54,530 nucleotides of DNA from NCBI GenBank assembly GCA_012730105.1, contig JAAYBJ010000105.1:1-54530 (forward strand), in the 5' to 3' direction. The notes under the pieces are model-generated. The model worked only from the letters and a program-made list of their open reading frames with translations, was not told the origin of the DNA and did no database searches. Numbering within the stretch: position 1 is the stretch's first letter; each line of letters begins with the position of its first letter. This document shows positions 21,848 through 28,412 of the stretch, one piece after another. This DNA comes from Candidatus Hydrogenedentota bacterium (GTDB lineage Bacteria; Hydrogenedentota; Hydrogenedentia; Hydrogenedentales; CAITNO01). A program made the translations under genes and the position numbers.

Positions 21848-23917
21848 TTATTGGGCTGGACTCTCCGGAGCAGGCGTTTCTTCCGGTTCAGCCACCGCCG
21901 CTTCACCCGCGTCGCCAGCATCGGCATCCTCTGCCACGCCGCTGTCTTGAGTGGAATCCGCCGTGGTATCCGCAACGGTATCCGTCTCGGAAACATCAAC
22001 GCCGGAAACCTCTTCGGAAGAGGATGCGTCCGGCGCGGGCTCACCCTCGCCCACTTCCCCCTCGGAGGAAGTCGCCGTCTCGTCTTCCCCTTCATTCCTG
22101 CCAAGAATGGCATCCAAAAGGGCGGTATCCTGGGTATAGGACACACTCGCCAGCATGCGTTCCCGCAGATCCTTCGTAAAATCGGCAAGCATTTCATACT
22201 GGGCGGTCTGCTTCATGCGGTTCTTGATTTCTTCCCGTTCTCCCTCAAAACTTGCGAGTTCTTCCGGGGTGGGTTCCTGGCGTTCAATCAGTTCAAAGAA
22301 CCAGGCATCCCCCAGGAAGCCCGTCAGCGGGCCGACCACGGCCCCGGGCTCTGAATCACTTAAAGCTGCATGTATTTCGGAAGCCTGCACGTAAACCTGG
22401 TATTGAAATAAGGAATCCTTGCGGCTAAACGACTCGGCCGTTTCGCCTATGGAAGCGTTTAACTCGGGGAATTGCGTTTTTATGTCATCGAGTTTCGAAA
22501 CTTCCTCCTTGATGCGGTCCGTATATGTTTTTACTTCTTCTTTATAGCCGTCCGTTTGTTTGCGTTCCGCAACCACTTTTTCGACCGCGGATTCTCTCGC
22601 TTCTTCAAAGGCAGGTATTTCGCCCTGCTTTCTCTCCAGCACCCGGGCCAGATAAATATTGTTGCGGGATTTTATTGCCTTCCATGCATCGTCGGTGGCA
22701 CTAACGACCTGGGAGCGGAATGTTAACACGTCACTGTCGGAAACATTTTCAATCTCGGTACTTCTGTTGTCAAAGAAGTTTGTGGCTGTTAGTGCCAGCC
22801 CGGCTTCTGTTGCCACAGATTGCGGTTCTTCGCCCTGCTGCAAACGTCCGACAAATTCGTCGGCTTTCTGCTCCCGGGCGGTCCGTTCCTCCGCGCTCAG
22901 TGCCGCGTTCAAAACGATCTGTCTGCCAAACACCTCACGCAGACCGGTTTCCTCGTTTGTTCTTTCCTCTTCATTTTTGTAAATGAAATAACCCGTGGGC
23001 CCCGGGATCGGATCGGAAACCTCTCCGGGCAGCAGGGCAAAAAGCGGTTTCAAATGTTCCCCCATGAACTCTTCTTCCGTGCGCCAGCCCATTTCGCCGC
23101 CGGCAGGCTCGGACAGGCTGGAATGTTCATTCGCCAGTTGCGCGAAATCTTCACCGCTTCGCGCACGTTCCACCAGTTGCGTTGCGAGTTCCGGCATGGG
23201 CGGCGCAAGTGACAGGACCATCAACTCCGCCTTGACCTGTTCCGGAAGCCGATACATTTCAGTGTTCTGGTCATAATGCGCGCGGAGTTCCTCTTCCGTG
23301 GGATTAATCGCGGGTTCTATCTTCGCAAACTTTACCCGCAATTTGACATGGTCCGCTTTTAATTCTTCCTCAAGATTATTGCTCAGAACGCGTCCCGAAG
23401 GTGCGGATACCGTGCTCAGAAACACTTGTTGCGTTATGCCGCCGCCCACGTCTTCAAAAATTTCATCCCACCGCGTAACGCTGCCCACCCACTCGTTCCA
23501 TGCCTCATGATTAAATTCGCCATTCTCGTTCTGGAACATGTCCCATTTCTGCATCTGCGCGCTCATCAGGTCTCTGTCCACCTTAAAGTTCCGCTGCGCA
23601 TCCAGCAGGCGGACCAGGGCCGCATCGACAAGGTTTTCCAGTACCCGCTGGACTGTCCCGTCCTGGTCCAGCTCGCGATAGGTGTGCGTTTCACCGCCCT
23701 GTCCCCGGCGCATCGCAATGGCCCTGTCCAGACTGCGCCGGAATTCCGATTCCATGATGGGTATCTCGCCGACTTGGGCGACGATGCGGTCTTGCACTTC
23801 CTGGCTTCTACCGCCGCAACTTGAAGGCATTCCAAACATGAATACGAAAGGAACACAAATAAAAACAAGGATAAAATACATGATAATTCGTCTGTGCTTG
23901 TGCATCCAATCCTGCAT
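21848..23917 (-). CDS. PpiD/SurA-like periplasmic peptidyl-prolyl isomerase and chaperone
   Basis: 689 residues from the ATG at 23917, which has GGAG 8 bases upstream. A short basic N-terminus (MHKHRR) and one span at ~10-30 anchor it in the inner membrane with the bulk outside, as in PpiD. A SurA_N-type helical region follows (residues ~40-200), then a parvulin domain with GEDFAQLANEHSSLSEPAGGE and LFALLPGEVSDPIPGPTGYF. A second weaker helical section follows, and finally an unusual ~80-residue tail extremely rich in Glu, Ser, Thr, Ala, Val and Pro. That tail looks disordered and acidic and is not part of standard PpiD. Its role is folding of exported proteins; the tail could bind other envelope components, which is inference. 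Confidence 0.9.
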   Translation of the reverse strand: MQDWMHKHRRIIMYFILVFICVPFVFMFGMPSSCGGRSQEVQDRIVAQVGEIPIMESEFRRSLDRAIAMRRGQGGETHTYRELDQDGTVQRVLENLVDAALVRLLDAQRNFKVDRDLMSAQMQKWDMFQNENGEFNHEAWNEWVGSVTRWDEIFEDVGGGITQQVFLSTVSAPSGRVLSNNLEEELKADHVKLRVKFAKIEPAINPTEEELRAHYDQNTEMYRLPEQVKAELMVLSLAPPMPELATQLVERARSGEDFAQLANEHSSLSEPAGGEMGWRTEEEFMGEHLKPLFALLPGEVSDPIPGPTGYFIYKNEEERTNEETGLREVFGRQIVLNAALSAEERTAREQKADEFVGRLQQGEEPQSVATEAGLALTATNFFDNRSTEIENVSDSDVLTFRSQVVSATDDAWKAIKSRNNIYLARVLERKQGEIPAFEEARESAVEKVVAERKQTDGYKEEVKTYTDRIKEEVSKLDDIKTQFPELNASIGETAESFSRKDSLFQYQVYVQASEIHAALSDSEPGAVVGPLTGFLGDAWFFELIERQEPTPEELASFEGEREEIKNRMKQTAQYEMLADFTKDLRERMLASVSYTQDTALLDAILGRNEGEDETATSSEGEVGEGEPAPDASSSEEVSGVDVSETDTVADTTADSTQDSGVAEDADAGDAGEAAVAEPEETPAPESPAQ

Positions 23918-24012
23918 GAAAAAGTCTCCATAATTAGGGTACAGGGCTTGTAGTGACGGTCCGACATTCCCGAAAAAAAGACATGCCAATGAACATGTTT
24001 ATTTCTTGCCGA

Positions 24013-24144
24013 GGGAAGTTACACTTTACCATAATAGCCTCGGATTTCTCAAATATCAGGGTTAAAAACCGCGCCTGTTTTCAAAGGTCGTTTAAGAGTG
24101 TGGGCGGGGAAGGACAACCGGGGCCTGAATTAGTGTAACTTCCC
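24013..24144. repeat. 132-bp element bounded by perfect 13-bp inverted repeats
   Basis: GGGAAGTTACACT (24013-24025) and AGTGTAACTTCCC (24132-24144) are perfect inverted copies. Inside, CCTCGG (24038-24043) can pair with CCGGGG (24118-24123) with one G-T wobble, extending the symmetry. No target-site duplication is apparent outside the arms. It lies in the 490-bp divergent spacer between the PpiD-like gene and the first microprotein gene. A 61-codon frame crosses it but ends exactly in the right arm and has no ribosome-binding site. It could be a small non-autonomous mobile element, a structured RNA, or a regulatory cruciform. Confidence 0.5.
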
Positions 24145-24407: not shown

Positions 24408-24557
24408 ATGAAACACACCCATTCGATCACGTGTCCACAAAAAGCTGCCAGTAGTGTCGGCACTTACGTTACCCTTGCCGGCCAGATAATTGTTATCCTT
24501 GCTTCACTGTTCGAGGACAAAGAAGTATTTAGACCGACAACAGAAACGGAAGAGTAG
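24408..24557 (+). CDS. Microprotein 1: 49-residue single-span membrane peptide
   Basis: A 49-codon gene, ATG at 24408, TAG at 24555-24557, with AAGGGA about 8 bases upstream. The protein starts MKHTHSITC, has a hydrophobic segment at about residues 19-35 (TYVTLAGQIIVILASLF) and ends in an acidic tail, DKEV then PTTETEE. It is unfamiliar to me. The N-terminal M-K-H-T-H and C-terminal T-T-E-T-E are shared with the next small gene (M-R-H-T-H and T-T-E-T-E), so they are probably distant paralogues. One Cys at position 9. It is first of five tiny genes in a row. Predicted to sit in the inner membrane; function unknown. Confidence 0.6.
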   Translation: MKHTHSITCPQKAASSVGTYVTLAGQIIVILASLFEDKEVFRPTTETEE

Positions 24558-24732
24558 CCTAGGAAATCGATTCTTTCCATGAAAATCTGAGAAACTTTAC
24601 CCTCCTTGGGAGTATATACTAAAAAAGGCAGATGCCGTGTCTGTTCATTCGGGTTTCGTCAGTGCACGTTGCCTGAGTACGAAAAAAAACATAATTAAGG
24701 CAATAATGCCTCCTGAAACAAGGAGATCAAAC

Positions 24733-24924
24733 ATGAGACATACTCACCCAGTTGGCGCCATACCTCAATATGCGGAAGGACTTTGTGACAATATTACCAC
24801 GGTAACCCAAGCACGGTATTGCTTTGTCTTGTCTTTCCTTACCGATTTTGTGGTACCCCTTGTACAGCCCGTTATTAATTGGAAGACCGGTCCAACTGAT
24901 TCAACCACTGAAACGGAACTATAA
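24733..24924 (+). CDS. Microprotein 2: 63-residue single-span membrane peptide
   Basis: 63 codons, ATG at 24733, TAA at 24922-24924. AAGGAG lies 7 bases upstream, the best ribosome-binding site in the cluster, and it decides the start over an upstream extension to 24637. The protein starts MRHTHPVGAI, has a hydrophobic stretch at about residues 29-49 (YCFVLSFLTDFVVPLV) and finishes TGPTDSTTETEL. The head and tail match microprotein 1. Two Cys, at 18 and 30. A small GGCA/TGCC hairpin lies at 24699-24710, just ahead of the ribosome-binding site. No recognised family. The 175-bp gap before it also contains a perfect 10-bp palindrome AGTATATACT at 24611-24620. Confidence 0.6.
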   Translation: MRHTHPVGAIPQYAEGLCDNITTVTQARYCFVLSFLTDFVVPLVQPVINWKTGPTDSTTETEL

Positions 24925-24960
24925 ACCTGTTCGCCCTTTTGAATGAAACGAGGTATACCT

Positions 24961-25137
24961 ATGCATCATCTGCGCTCCGTGTCCAAAAAGCCCGTTTTGG
25001 GCGGCACAATGGCACCCGAAGTAAAAATCACCTTCATAATAACGATTTTGCAGGCTGCAATACCCTTGTTTCAAAATAAAGATCCGCAAAATCCGGTGAC
25101 TACGGATGGCGGCGGCGATACTGAAGGGGAATCTTGA
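24961..25137 (+). CDS. Microprotein 3: 58-residue single-span membrane peptide
   Basis: 58 codons, ATG at 24961, TGA at 25135-25137, with GAGG 7 bases upstream and only 36 bp after the previous gene. The protein opens MHHLRSVSKK (basic head), has a hydrophobic stretch at about residues 22-37 (KITFIITILQAAIPLF) and an acidic, glycine-rich end, TTDGGGDTEGES. The layout (M-x-H head, one span, Thr/acidic tail) repeats that of microproteins 1 and 2, though the sequence has diverged. No recognised family; likely inner membrane, with the basic head inside by the positive-inside rule. Confidence 0.55.
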   Translation: MHHLRSVSKKPVLGGTMAPEVKITFIITILQAAIPLFQNKDPQNPVTTDGGGDTEGES

Positions 25138-25152
25138 GGACAAAAGTAATTT

Positions 25153-25181
25153 TTTTGTTGCATTTGTCAACAAAATATGAT
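25153..25181 (+). promoter_or_regulatory. Candidate promoter with operator-like inverted repeat
   Basis: TTTTGTTG (25153-25160) and CAACAAAA (25168-25175) are a perfect 8-bp inverted repeat with a 7-bp centre. TATGAT (25176-25181), a good -10 box, directly follows. The -35 position falls inside the left arm and has no TTGACA match. It lies between microproteins 3 and 4, about 47 bases before the ATG at 25228, so the paralogue pair may have its own regulated promoter. A terminator reading is less likely because no T-run follows on either strand. Confidence 0.45.
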
Positions 25182-25227
25182 ATGAATAGGGGGTGGATGA
25201 TTGAGTAAGTTACGGGAGAATCATCAA

Positions 25228-25338
25228 ATGAAGCATGTCCGAAAGATATCAGCCACGCGCGCAGACGCGTTTACAGCCTTTTTTAACGACCTATGGCGCG
25301 CATGGTATGATTATCGGGATGCAAAGAAATATTCTTGA
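25228..25338 (+). CDS. Microprotein 4: 36-residue ISATRA...WRxWYDxR peptide
   Basis: 36 codons, ATG at 25228, TGA at 25336-25338, with GGGAGA about 8 bases upstream. The protein begins MKHVRKISATRADAF and continues through DLWRAWYDYR to a Lys-rich end. It is a clear paralogue of the next gene: 20 of 36 residues are identical in an ungapped alignment, and of those 20 shared residues eight use different synonymous codons. Conserved Trp, Arg, Tyr and Phe spacing suggests a short amphipathic helix. It has no signal peptide or membrane span. I recognise no family. Too short for most gene finders. Confidence 0.75.
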   Translation: MKHVRKISATRADAFTAFFNDLWRAWYDYRDAKKYS

Positions 25339-25341
25339 CAA

Positions 25342-25351
25342 CTTGGCCAAG
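25342..25351. repeat. 10-bp palindrome between the paired microprotein genes
   Basis: CTTGGCCAAG is perfectly self-complementary and lies in the 30-bp gap between microproteins 4 and 5, just before the ribosome-binding site of the latter. It could tune processing or translation of the pair, or be chance. Confidence 0.25.
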
Positions 25352-25368
25352 CAGGATGGAGGAAACCC

Positions 25369-25488
25369 ATGAAACATATTAATACGATATCGGCAACCCG
25401 TGCGGAGGCGTTTCGGGATTTTATGTATGCCATCTGGCGCTCCTGGTATGATTTTCGCATTCAGAAGAAGAATGAATACCTCATCTGA
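25369..25488 (+). CDS. Microprotein 5: 39-residue ISATRA...WRxWYDxR peptide
   Basis: 39 codons, ATG at 25369, TGA at 25486-25488, with GGAGG about 7 bases upstream. The protein begins MKHINTISATRAEAF, passes through AIWRSWYDFR and ends KKNEYLI. Paralogue of microprotein 4; substitutions outside the identical positions are often conservative (Val/Ile, Asp/Glu, Leu/Ile, Ala/Ser, Tyr/Phe). Retained protein sequence over diverged codons is strong evidence that both are translated and selected. It is the last gene before the intrinsic terminator at 25515-25547. Function unknown; the shared M-K-H start links it loosely to microproteins 1-3. Confidence 0.77.
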   Translation: MKHINTISATRAEAFRDFMYAIWRSWYDFRIQKKNEYLI

Positions 25489-25514: not shown

Positions 25515-25547
25515 GCCCTTGTCGAGTTGAACGACAAGGGCTTTTTT
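25515..25547 (+). terminator. Strong intrinsic terminator ending the microprotein cluster
   Basis: Perfect 10-bp stem GCCCTTGTCG (25515-25524) and CGACAAGGGC (25532-25541), 7-base loop, followed at once by six T (25542-25547). It begins 27 bases after the stop of microprotein 5, and is the clearest terminator in the window. Confidence 0.93.
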
Positions 25548-25853: not shown

Positions 25854-28412
25854 ATGCCGCAAATACTGAAATATACCGTTATCCCAAAAATTCCCAAACG
25901 GCTTGAACGTCTTACGGATATTGCCTGCAACATCTGGTGGTGTTGGAACCCTGAAGCAGTAGATCTGTTTTTTCGTATCGACCGTGAACTCTGGACAAAG
26001 GTGGAACATAATCCGGTTCGTCTGTTAGGGGAAGTAAGTCAGGCGCGGCTGGAGGAACTCGCCGCCAGCGCCAGTTTTCTTGCCCACTTGGACCGGGTGG
26101 CGAATACGCTTGACGCCTACATGAAGGACGGGGAATGGCGCGCACTCCATGCGGACGCGCCGGAAGACCTCCTTGTGGCCTATCTTTCCGCGGAATTCGG
26201 CCTGCAGGAATCCATAAAAGTGTATTCCGGCGGCCTGGGTGTGCTTGCCGGCGATCATTTAAAAGCCGCGAGCGACCTCGGGGTGCCCCTGGTCGGTGTG
26301 GGACTGCTTTACCGGGAAGGCTATTTTCGCCAGTATCTGAACGAGGACGGCTGGCAGCAGGAACTATATCCGAAGAATGACTTTCACAACATGTCAATTA
26401 CCCTGGAGCAGGATGAAACGGGCGCGCCCCGGGTCATTGAGGTCCCTTATCCGGGACGCCTTGTCAAGGCATTTATCTGGCGCTGCCAGGTCGGCCGGGT
26501 TTCCCTGTACCTGCTGGACTGCGATCATCCGGAAAACACCGTTGCCGACCGCAACATCACCGCCCAGTTATATGGCGGGGATCGTGAAACACGCATTAAG
26601 CAGGAAATCATGCTGGGCATGGGCGGTGTGATCGCGCTGAAATACTTGGGCCTGCACCCCACGATTTATCATATCAATGAAGGACACGCCGCCTTCATGA
26701 TGCTGCAACGCATCAGAGATCTTATGGAACGCGACGGCATCGGTTTCTGGGAAGCGGTGGAAGTGGTTCGAATCGGCAGCGTTTTCACTACCCACACGCC
26801 TGTTCCCGCCGGCAACGACATGTTCGACCCGCATTTAATCACAACCTATTTTCAGGACTATTGCAACGCCCTGAACATTTCCATCAATGACCTGCTCTGG
26901 CTCGGACGCCAAAACCCGAACGACCCGCGCGAGCCTTTCTGCATGACCGTGCTGGCGTTAAAATTGTCGGCGGCCTCCAACGGGGTGAGCAAGCTGCACG
27001 GCAGTGTTGCGCGCAACATGTGGGCCAATGTATGGAAACAGGTACCCGAGGACGAACTGCCCATCACTTCGGTGACCAACGGCGTACACATTCCCACGTG
27101 GATTTCCAAGGATCTTGCCAATCTTTTTGACAGATACCTGGGCCCGGACTGGGTCGCGACGCCCCATGACCAGTCCGTGTGGGAACGCATTGACTCGGTG
27201 CCGGACTCGGAATTGTTCCGGATTCATGAGCGATGCTGTCAACGCCTGGTCGGTTTCGCGCGGCGTCGCGCCGAACAGCAATTAATCAACCGCGGTGCCC
27301 CCACCTCCGAGGTGCGCAAGGCGCGGGAACTGCTCGACGGGGAAACGCTTACCATAGGGTTCGCCCGACGATTCGCCACCTACAAGCGCGCCACGCTGCT
27401 TTTCAAAGACCAGGACCGGCTTCGCAAAATCTTGACAAATCCCGACATGCCGGTGCAGTTGATCATTGCCGGGAAAGCCCATCCCCAAGACACCCAGTCC
27501 AAGGAACTTATCCGTCAAATCATCCATTTTGCCCGGGATCCGCAAGTACGCCGCCATATCGCCTTTATCGAAGACTACGACATCAACGTGGCCCGCTACA
27601 TGATTCAGGGGGTGGATTGCTGGCTGAACACGCCAAGGCGTCCCATGGAAGCCAGCGGCACCAGCGGCATGAAGGCGGCCGCCAACGGCGCTCTGAATAT
27701 CAGTATTCCGGACGGGTGGTGGTGCGAGGCGGAAAACCTGGGAGAAAACGGCTGGAGCATCGGCAAAGGCGAGGCTTATGACGATGTCGAGGAACAGGAT
27801 CTCATTGAAAGCCAGGCTCTGTACGAAATTCTGGAACAGGAAGTGGCGCCCATGTTCTACAACCGGGGCAAAGAGGGGCTTCCCCGGGAATGGATCGGCA
27901 GAATGAAAAGCGCCATTCGCACCATCGCGCCCATGTTCAACACCTATAGAATGGTGCTGGAATATGGCGACCGTTTTTATGTGCCCTGCTGTCAGCGCCG
28001 CCATCGCCTGTTTCAAAACGATCGGGCTCTGGTGTACAAACTCTCCGCATGGAAATCCGTCATCAGGAAACACTGGTCCGCTGTCAAAATTCTCCACATA
28101 GAAAGCGGCCCGATCCAGAACCTGCATTATGGCGACACTCTGGAAATCACCGCCCAAGTGCACCTGGGCGAACTTGCCTGCGACGATGTCCGGGTCCAGA
28201 TCTACCACGGCGGTCTGGATTATCAGGGCAACTTCGCGCAGGCGGAGCAGGCGACCATGGAGTGCATGGAAGACCTGGGCGGCGGTAACTACCTATACAA
28301 GGGCACGGCGCCCTGTGAAATAACAGGCATGTCAGGTTGCACGGTCAGGGTCCTTCCATGGCATGAAGACTTCATACATGAACACGAGATGAGGCTGATT
28401 ACCTGGGCCTGA
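25854..28412 (+). CDS. glgP: Alpha-glucan (glycogen/maltodextrin) phosphorylase with N-terminal DUF3417
   Basis: 852 residues, typical of the DUF3417-containing branch of GT35 phosphorylases, which release glucose-1-phosphate from alpha-1,4-glucans. The N-terminal ~110 residues are DUF3417 (RLTDIACNIWWCWNPEAVDLF). The catalytic part begins VAYLSAEFGLQESIKVYSGG and includes VYSGGLGVLAGDHLKAASDL, THTPVPAGND, SVTNGVHIPTW and FARRFATYKRATLL. The pyridoxal-phosphate Lys lies in EASGTSGMKAAANGAL (Lys607), as in GlgP/MalP. The ribosome-binding site AGGAAGG is about 9-11 bases before the ATG at 25854. No glycogen synthase or branching gene is adjacent, so it may be a stand-alone storage-glucan gene. 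It is separated from the microprotein cluster by a strong terminator. Confidence 0.97.
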   Translation: MPQILKYTVIPKIPKRLERLTDIACNIWWCWNPEAVDLFFRIDRELWTKVEHNPVRLLGEVSQARLEELAASASFLAHLDRVANTLDAYMKDGEWRALHADAPEDLLVAYLSAEFGLQESIKVYSGGLGVLAGDHLKAASDLGVPLVGVGLLYREGYFRQYLNEDGWQQELYPKNDFHNMSITLEQDETGAPRVIEVPYPGRLVKAFIWRCQVGRVSLYLLDCDHPENTVADRNITAQLYGGDRETRIKQEIMLGMGGVIALKYLGLHPTIYHINEGHAAFMMLQRIRDLMERDGIGFWEAVEVVRIGSVFTTHTPVPAGNDMFDPHLITTYFQDYCNALNISINDLLWLGRQNPNDPREPFCMTVLALKLSAASNGVSKLHGSVARNMWANVWKQVPEDELPITSVTNGVHIPTWISKDLANLFDRYLGPDWVATPHDQSVWERIDSVPDSELFRIHERCCQRLVGFARRRAEQQLINRGAPTSEVRKARELLDGETLTIGFARRFATYKRATLLFKDQDRLRKILTNPDMPVQLIIAGKAHPQDTQSKELIRQIIHFARDPQVRRHIAFIEDYDINVARYMIQGVDCWLNTPRRPMEASGTSGMKAAANGALNISIPDGWWCEAENLGENGWSIGKGEAYDDVEEQDLIESQALYEILEQEVAPMFYNRGKEGLPREWIGRMKSAIRTIAPMFNTYRMVLEYGDRFYVPCCQRRHRLFQNDRALVYKLSAWKSVIRKHWSAVKILHIESGPIQNLHYGDTLEITAQVHLGELACDDVRVQIYHGGLDYQGNFAQAEQATMECMEDLGGGNYLYKGTAPCEITGMSGCTVRVLPWHEDFIHEHEMRLITWA

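Follow-up and report, generated by a model that had tools for sequence, protein, structure and literature searches.

Organisation of the locus

The window analysed here, 54,530 nucleotides long, is the whole of one contig (C49) of a Candidatus Hydrogenedentota metagenome-assembled genome. Between positions 24408 and 25488 it carries an array of five consecutive small genes, P1 to P5. The features of the locus are the following.

21848-23989, minus strand: SurA/PPIase-like foldase gene, flanking the array
24013-24144, no strand assigned: 13-bp perfect inverted repeat (GGGAAGTTACACT at 24013-24025, AGTGTAACTTCCC at 24132-24144), intergenic and upstream of P1
24408-24557, plus strand: P1, putative precursor of type 1, 49 aa; leader, 'LAGQIIVILASLF' helix, 'DKE'
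24733-24924, plus strand: P2, putative precursor of type 2, 63 aa; leader, 'GLCDNI...QARYCF', hydrophobic helix, 'WKT', acidic/Thr tail
24961-25137, plus strand: P3, putative precursor of type 3, 58 aa; leader, 'APEVKITFIITILQAAIPLFQNKDPQNP'
25228-25338, plus strand: P4, putative precursor of type 4, 36 aa; paralogue of P5; 'ISATRADAFTAFFNDLWRAWYDYRDAKKYS'
25369-25488, plus strand: P5, putative precursor of type 5, 39 aa; the most conserved of the five
25515-25541, plus strand: intrinsic terminator at the end of the array; 10-bp stem followed by T6
25854-28412, plus strand: alpha-glucan phosphorylase gene with an N-terminal DUF3417, flanking the array

A preliminary description of this DNA had reported the five plus-strand frames with their M-[K/R/H]-H starts, plausible ribosome-binding sites and a strong terminator after the fifth gene, and all of these were recovered. 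Purine-rich sites lie 5' of P1 to P5 (those at 24733 and 25369 being the clearest), and of the 635 frames in the whole window that start with ATG and encode 30-120 aa, exactly five begin with M-[KRH]-H, i.e. P1 to P5. P3 has a further in-frame ATG at 24943, and comparison of orthologues favours the start at 24961. Hydropathy peaks of 1.90, 1.90 and 1.51 for P1, P2 and P3 are consistent with a single membrane helix apiece, in agreement with the membrane span previously assigned to three of the peptides. P4 and P5 are amphipathic (muH 0.53 and 0.58, respectively), and their proposed paralogy was supported. The inverted repeat upstream of P1 is possibly a regulatory element.

None of the five peptides matched Pfam or NCBIfam, and comparison with PHROGs gave just weak, short matches devoid of annotation; on these grounds toxin-antitoxin or phage peptides were rejected. 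An RNA element was also rejected, the sole Rfam match being a sub-threshold one to Spot_42 located over the terminator.

Conservation and selection

The array peptide types recur in a largely fixed order across the Hydrogenedentota order: type 1 (a TxGQIL-like helix, then KE), type 2 (two Cys, QARFCF, VPLVQPF, K), type 3 (APEVKITF...QNKNPQNP) and types 4/5 (RADAF...WRAW.DFR..KKNE). Homologues of P5, whose consensus is MKHI..I[ST]..RADAF[TD]DF.NAVWRAW.DFR..KKNE, were found in 53 of the 68 genomes of the order, mostly within an array. P1 has orthologues in four further genomes, and both Cys of the P2 'GLCDNI...QARYCF' segment are conserved.

Orthologues of the same genus differ at 95, 60 and 248 sites at codon positions 1, 2 and 3, respectively (third-position excess, p=6e-31), which argues that these frames are selected as proteins. 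Among array genes, dN/dS was about 0.03-0.3 where dS was unsaturated, and for P2 it was 0.06-0.21 where dS was defined. P1 to P5 are real genes under purifying selection. The undescribed microprotein cluster announced in the preliminary description is thus genuine, and the homologues, conserved order, low dN/dS and terminator that it had named as checks were all found.

A short leader shared by array and orphan peptides

Two sets of peptides were considered, i.e. 124 array peptides and 60 orphan peptides. Array peptides start with a leader of about 14 residues, M-[KR]-H-[ILV]-x-x-[ILVM]-[ST]-x-x-[P/R/K]-x-x-A, and continue with variable cores that consist either of a hydrophobic helix followed by a lysine or of an aromatic amphipathic helix. 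As the regular expression of the array search required M-x-H and a hydrophobic/small pair (part of positions 6-9), independent evidence for the leader comes only from A14, P11 and the preference for K or R at position 2; A14, which was not a selection criterion, is present in 102 of the 124 array peptides. The M-x-H-T-H and T-T-E-T-E segments common to P1 and P2, to which attention had been drawn earlier, are not retained in same-genus orthologues and therefore count for little; what is conserved is the longer leader.

At the DNA level, a codon-based leader pattern gave 93 matches in the 68 genomes of the order and 5 in 79 outgroup genomes (0.28 versus 0.02 per Mb), and over the 147 genomes taken together a control pattern shifted out of frame by a single base gave 11 matches, the correct one 98. 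Many matches lie outside arrays and correspond to orphan peptides with other cores. A constant short leader joined to highly variable cores is, as far as sequence can tell, the pattern of RiPP precursors, and P1 to P5 are candidate members of the RiPPs proper. The leader has no hydrophobic h-region and is therefore not a Sec signal, no GG motif occurs in its columns such as would form the GG/GA cleavage site of double-glycine-leader bacteriocins, and it has no sequence match to the Nif11-like/NHLP leader families in Pfam or NCBIfam. Those families resemble the present one in having a single leader family, many precursors and variable cores, some of them orphan, and differ from it in leader length, the Hydrogenedentota leader being only about 14 residues long.

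Several orphan types were observed. One lies in the window's own genome (contig C247, L189:6983-7174; MKHLSRVTRKPCRAQVNLADIFTAIGEILKVVGTLLVTKEINNGDPYDW...), upstream of a gene whose 331-aa product has a 3'-5' exonuclease domain (PF01612); it is conserved in the genus, with relatives in five other genomes. A recurrent type ends in 'NLQKFYxKTP' or close variants (seven loci, from several genomes of the order), and at three further loci the cores contain Cys (e.g. ...SEGGCCCQNLF..., ...KKCQKFGKNCEVC) and differ from the membrane types.

A fixed operon next to the arrays

In 34 of 40 loci of relatives, the array is followed 50-350 bp downstream by an operon on the same strand whose gene order is fixed: GNAT-like 1, GNAT-like 2, a CPBP/Rce1-like protease, an ABC ATPase, an ABC-2 permease and a protein of about 620 residues, hereafter the maturase. 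Some of these loci are shortened by contig ends, so that not every one shows all six genes. In several families (nine loci), the array itself stands downstream of what we take to be the genes of the large and small subunits of glutamate synthase.

Exceptions to this linkage were met in three genera, i.e. g1 (that of the window), g3 and g6. The alpha-glucan phosphorylase gene lies directly downstream of the array in g1 and g6, and the maturase is encoded there on other contigs. The genome of the window has a complete six-gene operon, unlinked to the array, on contig C126, where its neighbours are presumably mnmE-, jag- and yidC-like genes, as named by sequence. The earlier statement that no RiPP-type modifying enzyme or transporter is adjacent is thus true locally and misleading for the genome. 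The proposal of unmodified signals or of a self-contained complex was not supported, given an RRE/SPASM protein, a protease and an ABC exporter on C126 and beside the array in relatives.

The maturase, as a full-length protein or as fragments split between contigs, was detected in 62 of the 68 genomes of the order. Among 318 genomes, none was found outside the order, where only SPASM or GNAT parts matched, as in ordinary proteins. Neither a plasmid nor a viral-contig match was obtained for the maturase, which also counted against toxin-antitoxin or phage peptides. All P5-positive genomes carry the maturase and the six genomes devoid of it have no P5 (Fisher test, 4.6e-5, with phylogeny ignored and five of the six negatives belonging to one family). 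A single orphan leader peptide was observed in a 99% complete genome without maturase (L139, G019:C786), which belongs to family f4, where maturase and P5 are mostly missing; this peptide is possibly a relic, a sign of missed assembly or a case of independent use.

Degenerate motifs in the maturase and its partners

All 17 maturases examined match radical SAM/SPASM RiPP-maturase models and TIGR04085. A profile built from these 17 sequences aligned with CteB (5wgg, the SCIFF maturase) with E=1.3e-42 over positions 3-425, spanning RRE, barrel and SPASM; as the alignment starts at position 3, an N-terminal RRE is covered, by homology only. The C-terminus matches GNATs in profile searches. The CxxxCxxC [4Fe-4S] SAM-binding motif is absent from all aligned maturases, which have non-Cys residues opposite the CteB motif. 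In the SPASM region, C373, C376, C382 and C405 are invariant, and two further Cys positions of CteB are non-Cys.

The GNAT-like proteins have the GNAT fold by homology (PF13420/PF13302 above cut-off; spermidine/diamine acetyltransferases of the PDB at 3e-14), and GNAT-like 2 is invariant at about 60 of 215 columns. The acetyl-CoA P-loop [QR]xxGx[GA] is missing from GNAT-like 1, from GNAT-like 2 and from the C-terminal domain of the maturase. Loss of CxxxCxxC, together with three GNAT-like domains lacking the P-loop, makes catalysis doubtful. The ABC ATPase is intact, and the protease (PF02517, 3e-12) keeps the EExxxR, FxxxH and HxxxN/D motifs in aligned members and is weakly similar to MrtJ/MrtS.

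One of the closest known systems is that of the SCIFFs/ranthipeptides (CteA-CteB), with which the present one shares a small precursor with a conserved leader, a maturase whose homology extends over RRE, barrel and SPASM, and a wide occurrence within a single clade, from which a non-antimicrobial role has been argued (PMC8326336). It differs from them in that the maturase lacks CxxxCxxC, has partly lost the auxiliary Cys pair and is fused to a C-terminal GNAT-like domain, and in that there are many precursors per genome and GNATs, a CPBP protease and an ABC exporter in the operon. SCIFF precursors have six Cys in about 45 residues, whereas P1 to P5 have 1, 2, 0, 0 and 0, respectively.

A lysine retained in the cores

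Beyond the hydrophobic helix, the basic residue met first is Lys in 75 peptides and Arg in 4, compared with 228 Lys and 194 Arg in leaders (p=6e-14, phylogeny ignored). Among the independent orphan cores, Lys occurs in 60 of 60 and Arg in 33 of 60; the K:R ratio of these cores is 126:47 (0.73 Lys), versus 0.36 Lys in the operon and flanking proteins. From the sequences, this bias suggests a Lys-specific reaction, for which a GNAT acylation of the selidamide/nostolysamide type could be an example. Acylation of any kind at the core is a tentative idea that we would not bet on. Since the GNAT P-loops are lost and the protease motifs intact, leader recognition, proteolysis and export are better supported than acylation, which is a hypothesis.

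Proposed function and alternatives

We propose, with a probability of roughly 70%, that P1 to P5 are RiPP-like precursors whose leader is recognised in trans by an RRE and which are then processed and exported. The leader would be bound by the N-terminal RRE of the pseudo-radical-SAM/SPASM-GNAT fusion encoded on C126. A model for this step in the Hydrogenedentota system is provided by CteB, whose RRE takes up the leader as a beta-strand (PMC8326336). The maturase and its two GNAT-like partners would act on the core or chaperone it, probably at the near-invariant lysine that follows the hydrophobic segment; the CPBP/Rce1-like protease would take off the leader or trim the peptide, and the ABC-2 exporter would bring it to the envelope. 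Binding, processing and export are all steps that we infer.

Among the alternatives, the one that survives best is leader-guided export or membrane insertion devoid of chemistry, in which the RRE/pseudo-SAM and GNAT-like proteins would only bind, as adaptors that hold hydrophobic peptides in solution and pass them to the protease and the ABC exporter. It accounts for the disappearance of CxxxCxxC and of every GNAT P-loop beside an intact protease and ATPase, and for a leader that is no Sec signal. It does not account for the retention of Lys specifically, rather than of any basic residue, after the helix, nor for the invariant columns of GNAT-like 2 and the four invariant Cys of the SPASM region, and we regard it as plausible, short of probable.

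Somewhat more doubtful is a RiPP lipopeptide route, in which the GNAT-fold enzymes would acylate the conserved lysine of the core. In selidamides and nostolysamides, where GNAT-fold proteins are likewise encoded with RiPP-like precursors, the side chains that GNATs acylate are those of Lys or Orn (PMC13060382, PMC9505594), and both the three GNAT-like domains per operon and the Lys counts given above, with a conserved Lys as possible acceptor, speak for such a route. The missing P-loop speaks against it, and a snorkelling or membrane-capping Lys could be conserved as well. Unlike selidamides and nostolysamides, moreover, the present system has no NHLP/Nif11 leader and no lanthionine synthetase in the operon, an RRE/pseudo-SAM protein being found instead.

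We consider improbable a sorting-tag system in which the CPBP protease would process membrane microproteins in the manner of myxosortase (MrtX/MYXO-CTERM, MrtJ/JDVT-CTERM). The intact CPBP glutamic protease with its weak MrtJ/MrtS similarity, the phylum-wide distribution, as in Myxococcota (PMC11980579), the many tagged substrates and the hydrophobic helix followed by a basic residue are points of likeness. The common tag is N-terminal here and borne by microproteins, the helix is followed by an acidic/Thr-rich and not an Arg-rich stretch and is preceded by neither an invariant Cys nor a signature motif, and RRE/SPASM and ABC partners are present.

It is very unlikely that the peptides are small membrane or structural proteins of an envelope or glycogen-related complex, with an incidental operon link and an array tied to the downstream phosphorylase as its position in g1 and g6 might suggest, since elsewhere the array adjoins the fixed operon, unrelated loci carry the same leader and a terminator separates array and phosphorylase; a functional tie to the phosphorylase was rejected, the adjacency being confined to the window's clade.

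Returning to the RiPP-like precursors, we infer for them an envelope or signalling role and not antibiosis, for which the near-universal, apparently single-copy pattern in the order argues. A comparable argument has been made for SCIFFs, whose wide occurrence in Clostridia was taken to speak against an antimicrobial role, quorum sensing being proposed (PMC8326336). A bolder version, which we hold unlikely, is that the order has a new class of peptide processing throughout, in which the degenerate enzyme folds, i.e. the pseudo-radical-SAM/SPASM-GNAT fusion and the two P-loop-less GNATs, perform a new lysine-directed chemistry on the array and on dispersed leader-tagged microproteins, as a core envelope/signalling trait of the Hydrogenedentota.

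Our literature search found no paper describing this leader/array/operon system. The logic of leader, RRE, protease and exporter is already known; the leader itself, the pseudo-SAM/GNAT fusion and the layout of array plus orphans appear to be new. The leader motif can by itself be used for finding more precursors. If our reading is true, the order would possess a near-universal RiPP-like system in which a very short leader is common to many precursors. A maturase devoid of radical-SAM and GNAT active-site motifs would then make the roles of pseudo-enzymes in peptide maturation testable, and the same would hold for the function that conserved, probably non-antibiotic peptides have for their producer.
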